From NCBI RefSeq assembly GCF_039645975.1, contig NZ_CP147918.1, forward strand, positions 310,001 to 374,000: a stretch of 64,000 nt of DNA, given 5' to 3'. Shown in pieces: positions 35,779-42,961 of this stretch (position 1 is its first letter; each line of letters starts with the position of its first letter). The notes under the pieces were generated by a model, which was not told the DNA's origin, searched no databases, and saw only the letters and a program-made list of their open reading frames with translations. This DNA comes from Sulfurimonas sp. HSL-1716 (lineage in GTDB: Bacteria > Campylobacterota > Campylobacteria > Campylobacterales > Sulfurimonadaceae). Position numbers and translations under genes: made by a program.

Positions 35779-36327
35779 CTAGTAAAGTCCGAAACGGCCG
35801 TCGTTTCTTTTGTAGAGTACGCGGGTCTTGTCTTCATGGTCTAAAAATATTTCGAACATCTTGCCGCTTTCTTTGAGTTCTTCTAAAACGTCTCCGATTT
35901 CACGGGGTTTATAGAGTTCGAGTTCGACGGGGACTATTTCGTCTTCAAGATTTTCGCTCTCCCGGCTAAGATCGATGCCGCCGTTTGCCTGTGATTGCGC
36001 TTTCGCTTCGTTGATGCCGACTTTATGATGATCCGTTCCCCTGTCATGCATACGGCGCAGCGCTTTTTGTGCACGGTCGATCGCTATATCGATAGCAGCG
36101 TAGAGATCGGTTTCGTTTTGTTTTATGACAACGGAATTTTTTCCTGCAAGATTTATAGTGAACTCTACGCTTACTCCGATCTTTCCTTTTCTTTCGTTAG
36201 CCGAAGCGACGGCCATTACCGATATGATGTCAAGATGAAATTTTTTAAGTGTCTCTATCGAAGCGTTTAGATGTTGTTTTATCGCGTCTGTAAGCTCTAC
36301 ATGACGCCCTACCAATGATATATTCAT
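35779..36327 (-). CDS. hpf: Long-form ribosome hibernation promoting factor
   Basis: 182 residues: the N-terminal HPF domain (NISLVGRHVELTDAIKQHL, then AIDRAQKALRRMHDR) is followed by a linker and a C-terminal dimerisation domain (EIVPVELELYKPREIGDVLEEL, then FEIFLDHEDKTRVLYKRNDGRFGLY). Long HPF alone forms 100S ribosome dimers. The start at ATG 36327 is set by AAAGGATAA upstream and by alignment with the short paralog; a TATAAT lies at 36357-36362. The short form is at 20162. It converges on recG. Confidence 0.95.
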   Translation of the reverse strand: MNISLVGRHVELTDAIKQHLNASIETLKKFHLDIISVMAVASANERKGKIGVSVEFTINLAGKNSVVIKQNETDLYAAIDIAIDRAQKALRRMHDRGTDHHKVGINEAKAQSQANGGIDLSRESENLEDEIVPVELELYKPREIGDVLEELKESGKMFEIFLDHEDKTRVLYKRNDGRFGLY

Positions 36328-36383
36328 AGTATTATCCTTTTGTTGCAAGTAATAATATTATATCATTAAAACTCCTTACAAAA

Positions 36384-36851
36384 TTATAATTTCTGCAATG
36401 TACGTCTAAAATATCTTATGGGTTCTGTTGAAACACCGGGGTCGCTCGTCACGGTAACATCCATCAAGACGGTGCCGTTTGATTCGGGCGTGACTATTGC
36501 AGGGATGTAGTCTGCACTGCCCCCGCAGCCTAAACCGATATACTTCATGGTAACGTTTATATCGAATATCTTATTTGTAGTGGAGGGGTAAACCGCATTG
36601 ACGGAAGTAAGGCAGCCGCTTGTGGCTCTGTTCCATCCGGAGACCTTCAGGAGCGCAAGTTCGGCTGCACTCTTTGCCAGCAATACGGCCTGCTCTCTAA
36701 GGTACAGATCGCTCGTTTGTTTGGTCGTTTGAGAGGTAAGGCTTAAGGTGAGTGCCATAATCGTGGTGAGGACAACTATGAGGATGATCGCCATAATCAT
36801 AGCAAAACCGCCTCTTTTAGAGGATCTTAAAATACTGTTTTTTCTTTGCAT
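36384..36851 (-). CDS. MshP/PilX-like minor pseudopilin
   Basis: 155 residues. The N-terminus is a short basic leader, then GGFAMIMAIILIVVLTTIMALTL, a hydrophobic helix starting after Gly-Phe like a prepilin but with Met where the +5 Glu is usually found, as in PilX/MshP-type proteins. The C-terminal part has Cys pairs and beta content. I place the start at ATG 36851, overlapping the preceding pseudopilin by 25 bases; an earlier in-frame start is possible. It closes the pseudopilin operon, as mshP does near mshO in MSHA loci. Confidence 0.75.
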   Translation of the reverse strand: MQRKNSILRSSKRGGFAMIMAIILIVVLTTIMALTLSLTSQTTKQTSDLYLREQAVLLAKSAAELALLKVSGWNRATSGCLTSVNAVYPSTTNKIFDINVTMKYIGLGCGGSADYIPAIVTPESNGTVLMDVTVTSDPGVSTEPIRYFRRTLQKL

Positions 36852-37252
36852 ATCGAGTATCCTCCGTCTCTTGAGATATTTGAGTCTTTCACACACAGCT
36901 GAACTTTTATGAGGTCTCCTACCGTACGGAATCTAAAAGTGTCGACATCCTGCATGATCACTGCACTTTTACCGTTGGTATAGTTTTCTCCTTTCCATGG
37001 CTGATAGTCATAATAAAGGGTCAGTGTTCCGTTTCCGCTGTTTTCCATTCCGCCCACAGACTGCAGATGTGCCTGTCTTTCATTCTCTATGGATGTGCGT
37101 ATGGCTGTTATCTGCTTTTTGACCCTCGCTTCGATGGCATCATCTCTGGTGGCAGTGAATTTTGGGATGGCGACAGCTGCCAATATGCCAAGAACTACTA
37201 TGACAAAGGTCATTTCCAGCATCGTAAATGCTTTTTTATTATTTGCTATCAA
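36827..37252 (-). CDS. Type IV prepilin-like protein (141 residues)
   Basis: Class III signal: NNKKAFTMLEMTFVIVVLGILAAVAIPKF, cleaved after Ala before Phe, with Glu at +5, then the long helix RDDAIEARVKKQITAIRTSIENER. The globular tail has two Cys near the C-terminus (LCVKDSN and SICKEK). The likely start is TTG 37252, which overlaps the upstream stop as TTGA and has AAGGTTGAG before it; the only longer in-frame start lies 51 bases inside the preceding gene. It is the most pilin-like member and could be the main or an MshC-like subunit. Confidence 0.85.
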   Translation of the reverse strand: MIANNKKAFTMLEMTFVIVVLGILAAVAIPKFTATRDDAIEARVKKQITAIRTSIENERQAHLQSVGGMENSGNGTLTLYYDYQPWKGENYTNGKSAVIMQDVDTFRFRTVGDLIKVQLCVKDSNISRDGGYSICKEKTVF

Positions 37253-38214
37253 TTTCTCAACCTTCTGCAGATTTCTCCGGCGGCGGTCGCGTTCACGACA
37301 CAATCAAACGAGCCGCTGTCTTGATCATAAGTAAAAGTGACATCCGTATTATGCACCTTTACGACATAGGTGTTTGCTGCGGTTTTCGTCCAATCGCCGT
37401 TTTTCGTAGCTCCCGTCACGTTCGTTATCGCCGTAGACATTAAGGGAACGCTGCCGTTTGTATCAAAGAGCGTTGCGGGATTTGCCGTTCCGTCATCGAG
37501 CCTGTTTATGTATTTTACCGCATTGGAGATAGTGTTACCGGTGTAAACCAGAGCGTACGCGCTCCATGCCATCTGGTAAAACTCATATATATCCTGTCCT
37601 GAAAAGTTACCTCCGGCCGTATTGGATGCCAGCAGATAGCTTGCCGTAGAGGATTGTATAGGATGCATCGTCTGGTTTTGATCCGTTATTCCGCCTCCGC
37701 CCCATAACCATCCATAACCGTTGATATCACTGTTTGCGCCTATAAAAAATATTGCACTGTCATTTATACCGCTTGTTCCGTTTGAGAGAGTGCCGATAAG
37801 AGTGTTTTCCGCGCTCGTGTTTGTTTCGGGCGAGTTCAGTATGGCGGTAGTATGGTTTGCATCAAGGTCTATAAACCCGCTCCACAGCGGAAGAGAAGAG
37901 GCTCGTAGCCCGTCGATATCGTAACCGATCCATTCCAATATCCTCTCTTGGGGTATATCTTGTGCATCGGCAAGCGGTTTGAAGGCATTGTTGTCGTTGC
38001 GTCTTACTATGACTGAGGATTTGATGCGGTACTGAAGACGGTTGGCTATCTGTTCCAATGCAACTTCGGTCTGTGTTTGAAGTCTGTTTTGAACGGTCGA
38101 GAATATGTAGCCGTCATACGCTTTTATAAGGAATTCCACCCCGAACTTTGCTATGATACCTATGACGACAATGACGAACACGAGTTCGATCATAGTAAAC
38201 GCTTTACGTCTCAT
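37249..38214 (-). CDS. MshO-like prepilin (321 residues)
   Basis: The prepilin leader RRKAFTMIELVFVIVVIGIIAKFG has Ala at -1 and Glu at +5. The long C-terminal part (about 280 residues) is Asn/Thr/Gly-rich with LASNTAGGNFSGQDIYEFYQMAWSAYALV, features seen in MshO-type minor pilins, which are larger than ordinary pilins. It ends in LRRLRN-like basic residues with a Cys pair. Start ATG 38214 abuts the upstream gene's stop region. Confidence 0.85.
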   Translation of the reverse strand: MRRKAFTMIELVFVIVVIGIIAKFGVEFLIKAYDGYIFSTVQNRLQTQTEVALEQIANRLQYRIKSSVIVRRNDNNAFKPLADAQDIPQERILEWIGYDIDGLRASSLPLWSGFIDLDANHTTAILNSPETNTSAENTLIGTLSNGTSGINDSAIFFIGANSDINGYGWLWGGGGITDQNQTMHPIQSSTASYLLASNTAGGNFSGQDIYEFYQMAWSAYALVYTGNTISNAVKYINRLDDGTANPATLFDTNGSVPLMSTAITNVTGATKNGDWTKTAANTYVVKVHNTDVTFTYDQDSGSFDCVVNATAAGEICRRLRN

Positions 38215-38891
38215 TAGTATCTCCTCTTAGCAAAATCGATCTCGCCGATATTTGCACTGTAAGCTCTTAAAAGTGTCAATGTTCCGTTTGTATCGCCTAT
38301 ATCTACCGTTATGAGTTTCATATTTGAAGGGGTATTGTTCCCTGTTGTTGGAAATACAAAAGGTGTACCCGTGTCGGGAATATAACTGATGGTGACGTTC
38401 ATTTTGTAATCTTTTTTATATCCTGTCGCGGTAGCGGCGGCGTTCTCAAAGCTGATGTTTGTCGCGCCCCTGTCATCGATGGCATCTATACTGCTGTTAT
38501 CGTCTACGTTTATGGTGGAGACGACTGCATCTGCCGAGTTGAAATTATGGAATCTTCTATGTCCGTCTTCGATGATATGTCCGACTCTGAAGCTTCCGTT
38601 TACGTCGGCATTGCCGTACATATCGTATGCTCGGCCGTAGCTGGCGGTTCCTCCCGGAATATCGACGACCTTTGTGTATGAAGCAAGGTTCTGGCTGTTT
38701 ACGGAATGTTCGTCCCAAGGGTAGCTGAGAACCTGCATCATTTTAGCAGAAGACGCGAATAGTGCTTCTTGTACGACATTGCCCTCTATCGCATTTTGGT
38801 TCACCCGCATCATCACGGGCAGCGAGATCACCGTTATAGCGATAACGACAATGGCAAAAATAAGTTCTATCATCGTAAAAGCGCGGCGCAT
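38214..38891 (-). CDS. MshD-like prepilin (225 residues)
   Basis: The prepilin leader MRRAFTMIELIFAIVVIAITVISLP has Ala at -1 and Glu at +5. The globular part has ASSAKMMQVLSYPWDEHSVN after the first helix, a stretch seen in MshD-type pilins. The ATG at 38891 overlaps the stop of the 1356-residue gene in a TGATG junction, which favours it over the TTG at 38897. It is translationally coupled to both neighbours. Confidence 0.85.
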   Translation of the reverse strand: MRRAFTMIELIFAIVVIAITVISLPVMMRVNQNAIEGNVVQEALFASSAKMMQVLSYPWDEHSVNSQNLASYTKVVDIPGGTASYGRAYDMYGNADVNGSFRVGHIIEDGHRRFHNFNSADAVVSTINVDDNSSIDAIDDRGATNISFENAAATATGYKKDYKMNVTISYIPDTGTPFVFPTTGNNTPSNMKLITVDIGDTNGTLTLLRAYSANIGEIDFAKRRY

Positions 38892-41800
38892 CACCAAAAT
38901 ATCCTTTTACTCGTAGTATCGCTGGCATTTGAATCTGTGGTCGTGTTCGTATTTTTCACACCTGTCCAATTGCCTCCCGGTCTATAAAATTCTACCTCGA
39001 ACTCGTTTGTAGTCGCGGTATTGTCGTACTTGTTATATATCAGCCATCCCGCTGCACTGTTTTGCATCGTGGTTTTGTACGGATACCCGGCGGATTGGTT
39101 ATAGATTATATTTGCATCTTCGGGATTGGTTCCGGCCAAACTGTTTAATGTGACGTTCGGCGATGACTTTCGCTCCGTGACCGAACCGACAGAGCCGTCT
39201 CTTACCGGGAGGTGATTGGTGTTGTTATACCAGTCCAGCTCGTCGATGCTTTCCGTAGTGGCCGTTCCGTTTGGCAGAAGCGCTTTGTTTCCGCTGCTGC
39301 CGCAATAAACTTCATAGTAGATAAAAGCGTCGCCGACATTTGTAGGGAATCTGTATCTCGGTGCATGTGTCCTTCCGTAGTAATGTTTTACGGTTTTGCT
39401 GACATTGAGATCGCCCTGCGTCGTTTTTGTCGTAAGATCCGCAAGGAAACTACAGTCTGTTCCCGGGCTTTGGCAATTTACGATATAGTCGTTAAACGTG
39501 ATAGTCTGAGGATCTATCGGTTTGCTTATGTTCCTGTCGAAGTTCAGGTTCAGTATAGAATTTATGGAACCGAGCATATCTTTTAAAAAGTGCGTGGTGT
39601 TAAGCGCGATAGGACCGGAGGTATTGTTTATATCGGCAAACAATGTCGAGTTCAGGTCACCCGTACTGTTATAGTCATGGTAACGGTAACCGTAACCTGC
39701 TGCAGTGGTGGTATAGTTCGTTTTGCTGATACTGATATCGATCGGCTTGGCAAAACAGTTGTTTACGAAGTTGCTCAAGAGCGCTCCGTCGCGTCCTATC
39801 GGACGAATATTGCCGTTCATATGCACCGACATGTTCTCATCTGCAGGCACGGACATATCCGACATATATATAAACGTATTCGCGTTAAAAGTAGTATCGT
39901 TAGTGAGTCCGACGGAAGCAACGATACTTGATAAGTCGAACTTGTATGGATGAAAAGTTATATCGTAATCGTTGTATTGAAGCGAGGCATCGCTGTTGGT
40001 GTGCGAGCTGCTTATATTACAGCCGTTGAGTGTCGTACTTCCCACTGTCTGCGTAGCCGAGGTGTTTAAAGTACAATCAGGCACGTTGCTTGAGAGAAAA
40101 TAGCTTCCCGTATGGTGTGTCATAAGAGTCGGATCATGATCGACTTTCGTCCAGCTCGTATCTATAGCATGAAGTCTGTAATCTCCGACCTGATCGACCG
40201 AAGAGTTCAGATCGACATAGCCGTTTAAGAATCTCAAAGAGATGGATTTATTGCCGATGTCGTTACATCCCGTGGTCACGACTCCGCCTCTTGGTTCCCA
40301 GATGTAAGAGACATTGTCATCCGAGGTATAACCGAAGGATTTTGTATATCCCGGTGCGGCGGTATTGTCTAAATGGTTAGTGGCCGTTATCTCGAGGTCA
40401 TAGTTGTAGCCCGAAGAGATATCCACTACGGAGTTTACCGGAGTCGTCACACCCGATACACTGTCTGCAATTCTTGTTTTTGTAGTTCCCGATGTCTGGT
40501 TTTGATCGTTTATTTTGATCATCAGCGCTTCTGGACGTATGGCAAAGTTGTCTCTGGAACAGGTATAAGGGACATAGTGACCGTATATACACTCCATACA
40601 GACGTTGAGTTCATTTTGAGTCATCGACGAAGCGGATGATGTACCGGCATTGGCACAGGCTTCGGGTACTTGAGTATACGTTTTGGTATGTGTTGCCGCA
40701 CCGGTATATATGGTGGCGGTGACGGGACTCACACAGGTACTTCCCGCATATCCCGGAAAGTTGACGAGGTGGAATTTGCCGGGAGCCGTTTCTTCGACGA
40801 TAAGCGATCCGTTGTCATCCGAAGGAGGGTAGCTTACCCTAAATGCAACGTTTTCTCTGGCGGTCTGGTAAAACTTGCTTGCCGCCTGCGGATCGGCAAG
40901 CAGGATATTGTCTATGATGTCCTGCCCCGTGAAACTTGCGGTGCTAGAACTTTTGAAGGTGATCCAGATCCTGTCGCTTATCGCACTGGTCGGTTCGTCG
41001 CATGATGTCGTCGTATCATGAAATGCTGATGCGTCTATAAGTTCCACGGCTACCGTGGTATTGACGTCTTTTGGCGTATCGAGGCTACTTGGATCGTATG
41101 CGACGATCTTGTAGTTATCCGCTCTTGAGGCTATTTCCGTCGGCAGGTTGTTATAGTAATTGCCGTTGCTGTAAGGGTAAAATATGTCGTTAACGACATT
41201 GAATTTTCCTTTTACCGGTGTGTAGGTGAAGTTTGAACTCGAACACATCTGAATCTTATGACTGGCACCGATATTGTGCGAGTAGGCTATCGGATTGGTA
41301 GGGTCGACGGCGACATTATAGCTGACATTTACATTAAGAGGCATATTTAAACTCGTCTGCAGCGGATCCACTTGATAGTACAGATAAAAGGATTGATTTG
41401 AAGGCAGAGTGCCTATGGGAACACCGATGATGTTCGCATCATCAACGCTGCCTAGGGATGAATCGGCTATCGGTTGTGCCGTCAGCGAGCCTGTCGGTGT
41501 CAGGCTGGTCGTATTTCTTATATAGGTCGCCTGAGAGGTATTCATATCAAGGATGCTGACGTTCATGTCGCTCACCGTTACCTGCGTATCGACAAGGCTT
41601 CTCAGGTATATCGTTACTTCTATAGGTTCGCCCGTCACGACGCCGGCAGGAAGTTTTGCGGTGGAAAGGTAGGGATCTGTCGTTCCGTTGTTGTCTTCGG
41701 TAAAATAGACACCGTTTTGTCTGTATGCATAATCGTAACAGAACTGAGGTTCAAAAATATCGGTTGAAAACGCTATCATTCCCGGAAAGATCTGATCACC

Positions 41801-42961
41801 CGTTCCTCCGACGTTATATGCCGATAACGACAGGCTTGTCGATGATTGCCCCACATCCATCTGAGAAGATACGTCAAATTCGTCGCTGTCGAGTCCAGGA
41901 TAATAGGTTATCGAGCTGTCGATAGGAACACCGAAGCTTGAAACGGAACCGTTAAAAGCATCGTCTACAGGGTTTGTTGCGTTATACAGATCGGTATAGG
42001 TAGCGGTTTTTCCCTGTTGCATTTGAAAAGTATCGTATTGAAGTTTTTTCTCTCCGCCGGCACCGTAAAAGAGAAGTTTCGCAGAGAGCGATTCTCCCGC
42101 CGGGATGGAGAGCGGAGTCAAAAAACCGCTTAAAGAGAGGTTGACGCTCTTTGTCGTACCGCTTCCAAGCGGAATAAGTGCGTCAAAACCCTGAAAGATA
42201 GTGACGTTTTTGGCTGTCGGCTGTGGTGATATTCCTATGATGGAACTATATTTATAGACGACCACAAGGTTCCAGTTCCCCCAAAATCCTATTCTGACTC
42301 CGTCGTAAGCATGTGTGTCGTCGCCCCAGAAATATGTGGCATAATCCGTGCCTATAGTGGATTTTATGTTTCCGACCGTAAAGTTGTTTACCGCGCGTGC
42401 GCTGCTGTATGAGGCTTTGACGATATCCGTTACGTCCTTATAGCCTTGATAAAAGGATCTATAACCGCCGTCAGAGCCGGTACCGTCGCCCCAAAAATCA
42501 TGGTACCAAACCTTATCCGCGGTCAAAGTGTGCACGGTTCCGTTAAAATCCTCTATCGTTACACTGTCGCGTCCTACGATCCCGGTCGCATAATTTGCCG
42601 CATCCGCACCTGTTATGTTTCCCTGCCAATAAAGCCCCGCATATACTATGTTCGAACCGTCTATCTGGCTTGGAAGCTGCAGAGTTTCGGTCGAAGAGTT
42701 TAAAGGTATTACCGCAGTACTGACGGAATTGACATATCTTGTCGTGGCATCGAAGAGATATCCCGTATAGTTGTTATTACACCCTCCGCCTCCGTTATCC
42801 ACACACTGTACGGAAGAAGCGATCGATTTATAATCACCGTATATATTGCTGGAGGAACCGCCGTAAACTACGGAAAAAGGATTTTCATAGCTTGTCGCGT
42901 GTCCGGCTCCGAATAAAAAAATAGGGAAAAAAACTGTTATTATTATAAAAAAATATCTCAT
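38891..42961 (-). CDS. Large exported MshQ-like surface protein (1356 residues)
   Basis: Signal peptide (about residues 1-22, MRYFFIIITVFFPIFLFGAG). The mature protein is beta-rich and very high in Asn, Ser, Thr, Asp and Gly, with scattered Cys pairs (CVDNGGGGCNN, CMECIYGHYVPYTC). The N-terminal third contains IVYAGLYWQG and FWGNWNLVVVYKY motifs of cell-surface repeat domains. After about residue 830 DNFAIRPEALMIKIND and the C-terminal YRPGG and SKRIFW recall MshQ (DUF6701), the tip-like protein of MSHA pili. No transmembrane anchor, so it probably rides on pseudopilins encoded downstream. AAGGAGG precedes the ATG. The MshQ link is inferred. Confidence 0.75.
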   Translation of the reverse strand: MRYFFIIITVFFPIFLFGAGHATSYENPFSVVYGGSSSNIYGDYKSIASSVQCVDNGGGGCNNNYTGYLFDATTRYVNSVSTAVIPLNSSTETLQLPSQIDGSNIVYAGLYWQGNITGADAANYATGIVGRDSVTIEDFNGTVHTLTADKVWYHDFWGDGTGSDGGYRSFYQGYKDVTDIVKASYSSARAVNNFTVGNIKSTIGTDYATYFWGDDTHAYDGVRIGFWGNWNLVVVYKYSSIIGISPQPTAKNVTIFQGFDALIPLGSGTTKSVNLSLSGFLTPLSIPAGESLSAKLLFYGAGGEKKLQYDTFQMQQGKTATYTDLYNATNPVDDAFNGSVSSFGVPIDSSITYYPGLDSDEFDVSSQMDVGQSSTSLSLSAYNVGGTGDQIFPGMIAFSTDIFEPQFCYDYAYRQNGVYFTEDNNGTTDPYLSTAKLPAGVVTGEPIEVTIYLRSLVDTQVTVSDMNVSILDMNTSQATYIRNTTSLTPTGSLTAQPIADSSLGSVDDANIIGVPIGTLPSNQSFYLYYQVDPLQTSLNMPLNVNVSYNVAVDPTNPIAYSHNIGASHKIQMCSSSNFTYTPVKGKFNVVNDIFYPYSNGNYYNNLPTEIASRADNYKIVAYDPSSLDTPKDVNTTVAVELIDASAFHDTTTSCDEPTSAISDRIWITFKSSSTASFTGQDIIDNILLADPQAASKFYQTARENVAFRVSYPPSDDNGSLIVEETAPGKFHLVNFPGYAGSTCVSPVTATIYTGAATHTKTYTQVPEACANAGTSSASSMTQNELNVCMECIYGHYVPYTCSRDNFAIRPEALMIKINDQNQTSGTTKTRIADSVSGVTTPVNSVVDISSGYNYDLEITATNHLDNTAAPGYTKSFGYTSDDNVSYIWEPRGGVVTTGCNDIGNKSISLRFLNGYVDLNSSVDQVGDYRLHAIDTSWTKVDHDPTLMTHHTGSYFLSSNVPDCTLNTSATQTVGSTTLNGCNISSSHTNSDASLQYNDYDITFHPYKFDLSSIVASVGLTNDTTFNANTFIYMSDMSVPADENMSVHMNGNIRPIGRDGALLSNFVNNCFAKPIDISISKTNYTTTAAGYGYRYHDYNSTGDLNSTLFADINNTSGPIALNTTHFLKDMLGSINSILNLNFDRNISKPIDPQTITFNDYIVNCQSPGTDCSFLADLTTKTTQGDLNVSKTVKHYYGRTHAPRYRFPTNVGDAFIYYEVYCGSSGNKALLPNGTATTESIDELDWYNNTNHLPVRDGSVGSVTERKSSPNVTLNSLAGTNPEDANIIYNQSAGYPYKTTMQNSAAGWLIYNKYDNTATTNEFEVEFYRPGGNWTGVKNTNTTTDSNASDTTSKRIFW

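Follow-up and report, generated by a model that had tools for sequence, protein, structure and literature searches.

A probable tip-complex operon of an MSHA-type type IV pilus with scattered genes in Sulfurimonas sp. HSL-1716

In this study we analyzed a window of 64,000 nucleotides (C1:310001-374000 of a closed genome of 2,257,566 bp) and found an operon for what is very probably the tip complex of a type IV pilus of the MSHA (MSH) type, a system with genes dispersed along the chromosome. The operon comprises five overlapping minus-strand genes (42961-36384), whose products are an exported protein of 1356 residues, three prepilins and one PilX/MshP-like protein; adjoining genes overlap by 1 to about 25 bases. 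A preliminary description, made from the sequence alone, had listed products of 1356, 225, 321 and 141 residues and an MshP/PilX-like one, and all five were recovered as minus-strand open reading frames at the same coordinates. The order giant-D-O-P (Q-D-O-P) was present in 66 of 79 loci from other, named genomes, and dN was far below dS for all five genes in comparison with a congener. Therefore, the gene set stands far beyond chance. The leading position of the Q-like gene, to which the preliminary description had drawn attention, was confirmed, but it is the normal order in this phylum and no oddity of this genome. The features of the locus are as follows:

38891..42961, minus strand: giant MshQ-like exported protein P0001, 1356 aa; similarity to DUF6701 via relatives only
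38214..38891, minus strand: MshD-like minor prepilin P0002, 225 aa; AF at the cleavage site, Glu5
37249-38214, minus strand: prepilin P0003, 321 aa, whole ORF
37537..38214, minus strand: N-terminal part of P0003, matching MshO profile positions 7-232; 300.6 bits
37249..37536, minus strand: C-terminal tail of P0003, resembling the C-terminal part of an MshA-like pilin (A3 residues 69-150, 43% identity)
36827-37252, minus strand: prepilin P0004, 141 aa, TTG start, whole ORF
37067..37252, minus strand: N-terminal head of P0004, resembling an MshA-like prepilin N-terminus (A3 residues 2-59, 66% identity)
36827..37054, minus strand: C-terminal tail of P0004, matching MshO profile positions 232-299; 92.4 bits; aligns with the intact MshO of a related genus
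36384..36851, minus strand: MshP/PilX-like minor pilin P0005, without Glu5; ORF 36896-36384, likely ATG at 36851
35779..36348, minus strand: ribosome hibernation/modulation-factor-like gene after P, identified by sequence appearance

The hibernation-factor-like gene comes after P in several genera. Judged by its sequence, it is a conserved neighbour of the operon and no part of the pilus.

Prepilins and distant pilus machinery

In the three classical prepilins P0002, P0003 and P0004 a class III signal was recognized (N_methyl, TIGR02532), in which Ala occupies -1 and Glu +5; P0005 has Gly at -1 and no Glu5. Besides the prepilin signal, searches of Pfam and NCBIfam with the three classical prepilins returned little. 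The Ala at -1 had been singled out in the preliminary description. It is indeed present in all three, but it is not distinctive, as 9 of the 11 Glu5-bearing prepilins read from the genome share it, T2SS pseudopilins among them. Moreover, in the D and O families as a whole Ala is the most frequent -1 residue. The genome yielded one A24 prepilin peptidase, at C1:968 kb.

A search of the window with PF00437 found no motor ATPase (the sole match was sub-threshold at 21.7 bits), in agreement with the earlier statements that the locus holds no pilus motor gene and needs a machine encoded elsewhere. The genome has two extension-type ATPases. The first sits in a complete T2SS-like operon at C1:1739-1749 kb with its own G, H, I, J and K. 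The second lies about 1.25 million bases from the window operon in the pilin-free operon mshI-J-K-L-M-N-E-G at C1:1599-1609 kb, where a PilO-like protein and an AAA ATPase are encoded. The secretin of this operon passes the MshL equivalog model (TIGR02519) with 256.8 bits against a cutoff of 250.2, and its ATPase carries an MshEN domain. The assignment of the motor ATPase rests on HMM cutoffs and reciprocal matches: the ATPase is the reciprocal best match of Aeromonas MshE (395 bits versus 315 for the genome's own GspE), the platform protein is that of Aeromonas MshG (209 versus 129 for its own GspF), and the MshM ATPase matches Aeromonas MshM reciprocally at 5e-12.

The RLG motif of MshE, located in the c-di-GMP-binding MshEN region, is absent in this genome (L009:9005-10741, C1:1606.0-1607.7 kb) as well as in Sulfurimonadaceae and Campylobacter-type relatives (L187, L189, L184, L182). 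It is kept in the family f18 of the same phylum, in Aeromonas and in Legionella. The loss of the motif suggests that the control of MshE by c-di-GMP was lost or altered here and in the other RLG-less relatives.

Further candidate components are dispersed over the chromosome. A PilT-like motor is encoded at C1:1.35 Mb and a PilU-like motor at 0.605 Mb, and three tandem MshA-like pilin genes are located at C1:506.8-508.4 kb (L053:6855-8378). Aeromonas MshA matches these pilins best (4e-11), across the N-terminal 36-63 residues only. The tandem pilin genes lie a few genes upstream of priA, ispG-like and dnaB-like genes and comEC, a possible link to competence.

The two halves of the system are contiguous in family f18. 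In its four genomes (L175-L178) a single operon has the order Q-D-O-P-C-I-J-K-L-M-N-E-G, and two MshA-like pilin genes adjoin G in opposite orientation. Reciprocal BLAST with the f18 operon pairs Q, D and P of the window and I, K, L, M, N, E and G of the 1.60 Mb operon with their counterparts; P0002 finds the D gene at 8e-16 and P0005 the P gene at 8e-22 as reciprocal best matches. The genome's own O also matches the O of f18, but pilin N-termini compete. In searches of Aeromonas with family HMMs for D, O and P the best protein was the namesake each time (MshD, MshO, MshP), with modest scores. The secretin MshL, the ATPases MshE and MshM, the platform protein MshG and the minor pilins D, O and P thus correspond to components of the MSH model of Denise et al. 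2019, in which the major pilin MshA may be a loner gene. The proposed D-, O- and P-like identities thus agree with both the f18 operon and the Aeromonas namesakes. The MSHA-type affinity claimed in the preliminary description was largely right, given the contiguous f18 operon, the reciprocal matches, the MshL score above cutoff and the MshEN domain. A grouping of the pilins with a T2SS, which would have spoken against it, did not occur: they pair with MSH genes and not with the T2SS set.

P0003, P0004 and the mshO gene

Sequence comparison indicates that P0003 and P0004 are reciprocal chimeras, that is, one MshO interrupted in frame by one circularly permuted MshA-like pilin. On the O-family HMM, P0003 aligns at positions 7-232 and then ends, and P0004 takes up positions 232-299 behind a different pilin N-terminus. 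The missing pieces correspond to the genome's own MshA-like pilin A3, with residues 69-150 matching the tail of P0003 (43%) and residues 2-59 matching the head of P0004 (66%). The 141-residue P0004 had previously been regarded as C-like. This assignment was rejected, since its head matches an MshA-like pilin and its tail matches MshO. An MshC/FimT-like pilin gene is located at C1:759.8 kb, and its homologue stands directly after P in Sulfurovum-type loci.

The split architecture was found in all six readable genomes of the genus (the window genome, G001, G002/L077, G003, G006 and G007) and in none of the inspected outgroups L056-L059 and L190. In other loci 66 of 73 O proteins reach the end of the profile. 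The seven shorter ones comprise L077 of the same genus, five that contig ends seem to have truncated, and L064, a short ORF. Between G000 and G006, P0004 has a dN of 0.11 and a dS of 1.3, and P0003 has a dN of 0.16 with dS near saturation. As dN is far below dS in both cases, both chimeras are maintained. In one further locus, L114, an O-like ORF of 448 aa was observed and a separate D was not found there, possibly a D-O fusion.

With regard to the origin of the chimeras, a permuted unit from the tandem pilin array may have been inserted into mshO. It is quite conceivable, even if we lean slightly against it, that an ancestral mshO and an adjoining mshA-like gene instead swapped their C-terminal parts, as both events yield the identical products O(1-232)+A(69-150) and A(2-59)+O(232-299). 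However, no surveyed outgroup locus has an intact A-like gene after O which could have taken part in such an exchange, and tandem A genes do exist at C1:506.8-508.4 kb. For the protein products we tentatively propose a split minor pilin, in which the MshO fold would be completed in trans between two neighbouring, separately processed tip subunits. If this is true, the natural split-pilin system would determine which subunits are in contact at the tip of the pilus.

The giant MshQ-like protein

P0001 consists of a signal-like N-terminus, a beta-sandwich region at about residues 1-400, a conserved beta-sandwich region at about 400-1356 and an invariant C-terminal Trp. The protein had been described as MshQ-like, which held by way of its relatives: P0001 itself scores nothing against MshQ/DUF6701 (PF20419), neither at E <= 1 in hmmscan nor at E <= 10 genome-wide, and an NCBIfam search with the giant was negative. 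The similarity became apparent through homologues. An ORF of G092 matches P0001 at 3e-99 and DUF6701 at 4.6e-15 on overlapping residues. Likewise, the Q of the contiguous f18 operon (an ORF of G114) matches the giant-family HMM at 2.3e-25 and DUF6701 at 5.9e-19, and an ORF of G075 gave 5e-13 for the giant family and 2.7e-23 for DUF6701. Because such homologues match DUF6701 on residues shared with the giant, P0001 can be classed by transitive homology as a divergent MshQ-like protein, and we do not file it as DUF6701. A giant devoid of any MshQ similarity, which would have contradicted the preliminary description, is thus not what was found.

A comparison of the giant family with the C-terminus of one Aeromonas MshQ by hhalign gave a probability of 0.3%, though the expected region was aligned. 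MshQ relatives were also sought in viral contigs and plasmids, and none were found except one Aeromonas record. In this record mshQ is interrupted by insertion sequences and was compared piece by piece; the 4.9-Mb record (L135, NZ_AP026896.1, Aeromonas caviae) is filed as a plasmid and looks like a chromosome. Another contig, L115 (JAADCY010000223.1), is binned as a Thermoproteota archaeon and bears a Campylobacterota giant gene, probably as a result of binning contamination. Some genomes have two or three tandem paralogues of the giant (L125, L078, L080, L083, L127), and in L125 the Q-D-O-P set is present twice.

AlphaFold2 models of residues 1-430 (mean pLDDT 86) and 380-1356 (mean pLDDT 88) are confident and mostly beta, and the giant is accordingly modelled as a chain of beta-sandwich-like domains. 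In PDB fold searches both models drew nothing more specific than beta sandwiches of a generic kind at very low TM (complement C3, PNGase, pilus backbones), and these matches were set aside as uninformative. No solved fold pointed to a binding domain, and no PilY1 structure was among the matches listed. As the matches are generic, we propose no ligand. Several homologues share only about residues 400-1356 with P0001 and differ in their N-termini, and such a lineage-variable N-terminus in front of a conserved remainder is what one would expect if the protein were an adhesin on a conserved stalk. From the predicted beta-sandwich chain, the conserved C-terminal region and the variable N-terminus it follows that the giant probably binds surfaces (minerals, sulfur, other cells).

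Distribution, function and related systems

Of 200 genomes drawn evenly from the phylum, 87 contain the giant and 154 an MshL above the cutoff. With the limit set at E below 1e-60, MshL was present in 82 of the 87 giant-bearing genomes and in 83 of the 113 others (Fisher p = 7e-5, a value which is descriptive since related genomes are not independent). The secretin or the ATPase of the MSH machine was detected in 86 of the 87. Four of these genomes (G017, G218, G239, G240) have a full-length MshE with 56-73% identity and a secretin too weak for the 1e-60 criterion for MshL. The closed genome G211 (L180, G211:C1:570000-586000) has neither MshL nor MshE; its giant is in pieces of 125 + 1272 aa and its O in pieces of 81 + 180 aa. 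The related G208 (L183/L184), in contrast, has an intact giant of 1412 aa, an O of 340 aa and the full machine. Both halves therefore appear to have decayed together in G211, the tip operon in coordination with the machine.

We read the operon as a tip-initiation complex with a cap, by analogy to the PilHIJK-PilY1 tip (PMC10191384) and to MshQ of V. cholerae, where surface MSHA is lower after the loss of mshQ and MshQ has been termed a putative adhesin (PMC7096442). In the proposed model the single prepilin peptidase (C1:968 kb) would trim the prepilins. D, O (split over P0003/P0004) and P, together with the MshC-like pilin from C1:759.8 kb, would form an initiation/tip complex in the inner membrane. 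This complex would be capped by the exported giant, as by PilC/PilY1 in other type IV pili. The I-J-K-L-M-N-E-G machine (C1:1.60 Mb) would then extend a filament of the MshA-like major pilins (C1:506.8-508.4 kb), which PilT and PilU (C1:1.35 and 0.605 Mb) may retract. A retractile adhesion pilus is the likely role, with adhesion favoured and DNA uptake as the main rival. Indirect support for adhesion comes from Sulfurovum indicum, in which an MshL gene is upregulated on elemental sulfur (PMC10045233).

Some points count against the tip-complex model. The MshA-like pilins resemble true MshA mostly at the N-terminus. P0001 has no DUF6701 match, a weak hhalign result and no identified binding fold. 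Besides, the homologous machine of C. jejuni-type genomes, which is known for DNA uptake, does without Q-D-O-P. The machine and tip complex could accordingly serve mainly for DNA uptake, as a competence pilus of the Cts kind, with a giant that binds DNA or only primes assembly. We consider this unlikely. The machine is homologous to the Campylobacter Cts operon and the genome has comEC at C1:513.2 kb onward, about 5 kb from the MshA-like pilin array; however, comEC is widespread among bacteria, with 10 of 14 control genomes having it, and the size and variable N-terminus of the giant fit a surface binder. Moreover, a genus with a Cts-type locus lacks the giant, which is thus not needed for Cts. 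That the T2SS-like system (C1:1739-1749 kb) uses the prepilins as extra pseudopilins and exports the giant as its substrate is highly improbable in spite of that complete operon and a weak, below-cutoff GspG score of P0004 (3.6e-9), since the operon itself already encodes G, H, I, J and K, the score is limited to the N-terminal 52 residues, and the closed congener G006 keeps the window operon and the MSH machine with MshE and lacks GspE, which rules out the T2SS as a required partner.

The preferred reading, a tip complex of an MSH pilus, can be compared with several known systems. Similar to the MSHA pilus of Vibrio, Shewanella and Aeromonas, for which the class T4eP has been proposed, the genome has homologues of MshE, G, L, M, I, J, K and N, together with a large Q-like protein and minor pilins that resemble D, O, P and C, and its set shows reciprocal similarity to the Aeromonas caviae locus. 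It differs in that the pilin/adhesin operon lies apart from the machine with Q first, mshO is split, the giant is far diverged from DUF6701, MshE lacks the RLG motif, and an mshB- or mshF-like gene was not identified. The Campylobacter Cts system (CtsD, P, X, E, F) has a homologous machine with the same gene order, and the genome's own L, E and M match those of L182 at 4e-85, 4e-139 and 1e-20. Cts is known for DNA uptake and not for adhesion, and it differs in that the Cts-type genus has no giant. The L, M, N, E and G homologues of L182 have 470, 202, 195, 519 and 393 aa. The lengths of the first four match those published for C. jejuni CtsD, CtsP, CtsX and CtsE (472, 202, 195 and 519; PMC8308473), which ties the machine to Cts. 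The T4aP tip of PilHIJK and PilC/PilY1 likewise combines H-, I-, J- and K-type minor pilins, one of them without Glu5, with a large exported non-pilin encoded beside them (PMC10191384), whereas our locus is connected to an MSH-type machine and has a giant that is all beta-sandwich in models.

MSH systems in Epsilonproteobacteria were reported from a genome scan as multi-locus systems in which mshA stands alone as a loner gene (Denise et al. 2019, PMC6668835). They belong to the same system class; the tip operon, the giant, the split mshO and the Cts link are not described in the available part of that paper. MSH-like parts have been noted for the pili of Thiovulum (PMC9938260), and a 2023 review omits MSHA from its component table as too poorly characterised (PMC10191384). 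A literature search for MshQ as a tip adhesin and for circularly permuted minor pilins returned nothing relevant. As far as the searched literature shows, the phylum-wide tip-complex operon with its giant, its separation from a defined machine, the Cts link and the split chimeric mshO are new.

With these results much of the phylum gains a candidate tip complex, and its giant hypothetical proteins can be viewed as probable adhesins of the pilus tip. The results also tie the Cts transformation machine of Campylobacter to the MSHA family. The question whether one shared machine serves adhesion and DNA uptake becomes testable. Finally, the chimeric, split mshO may be regarded as a natural experiment on the contacts between minor pilins.
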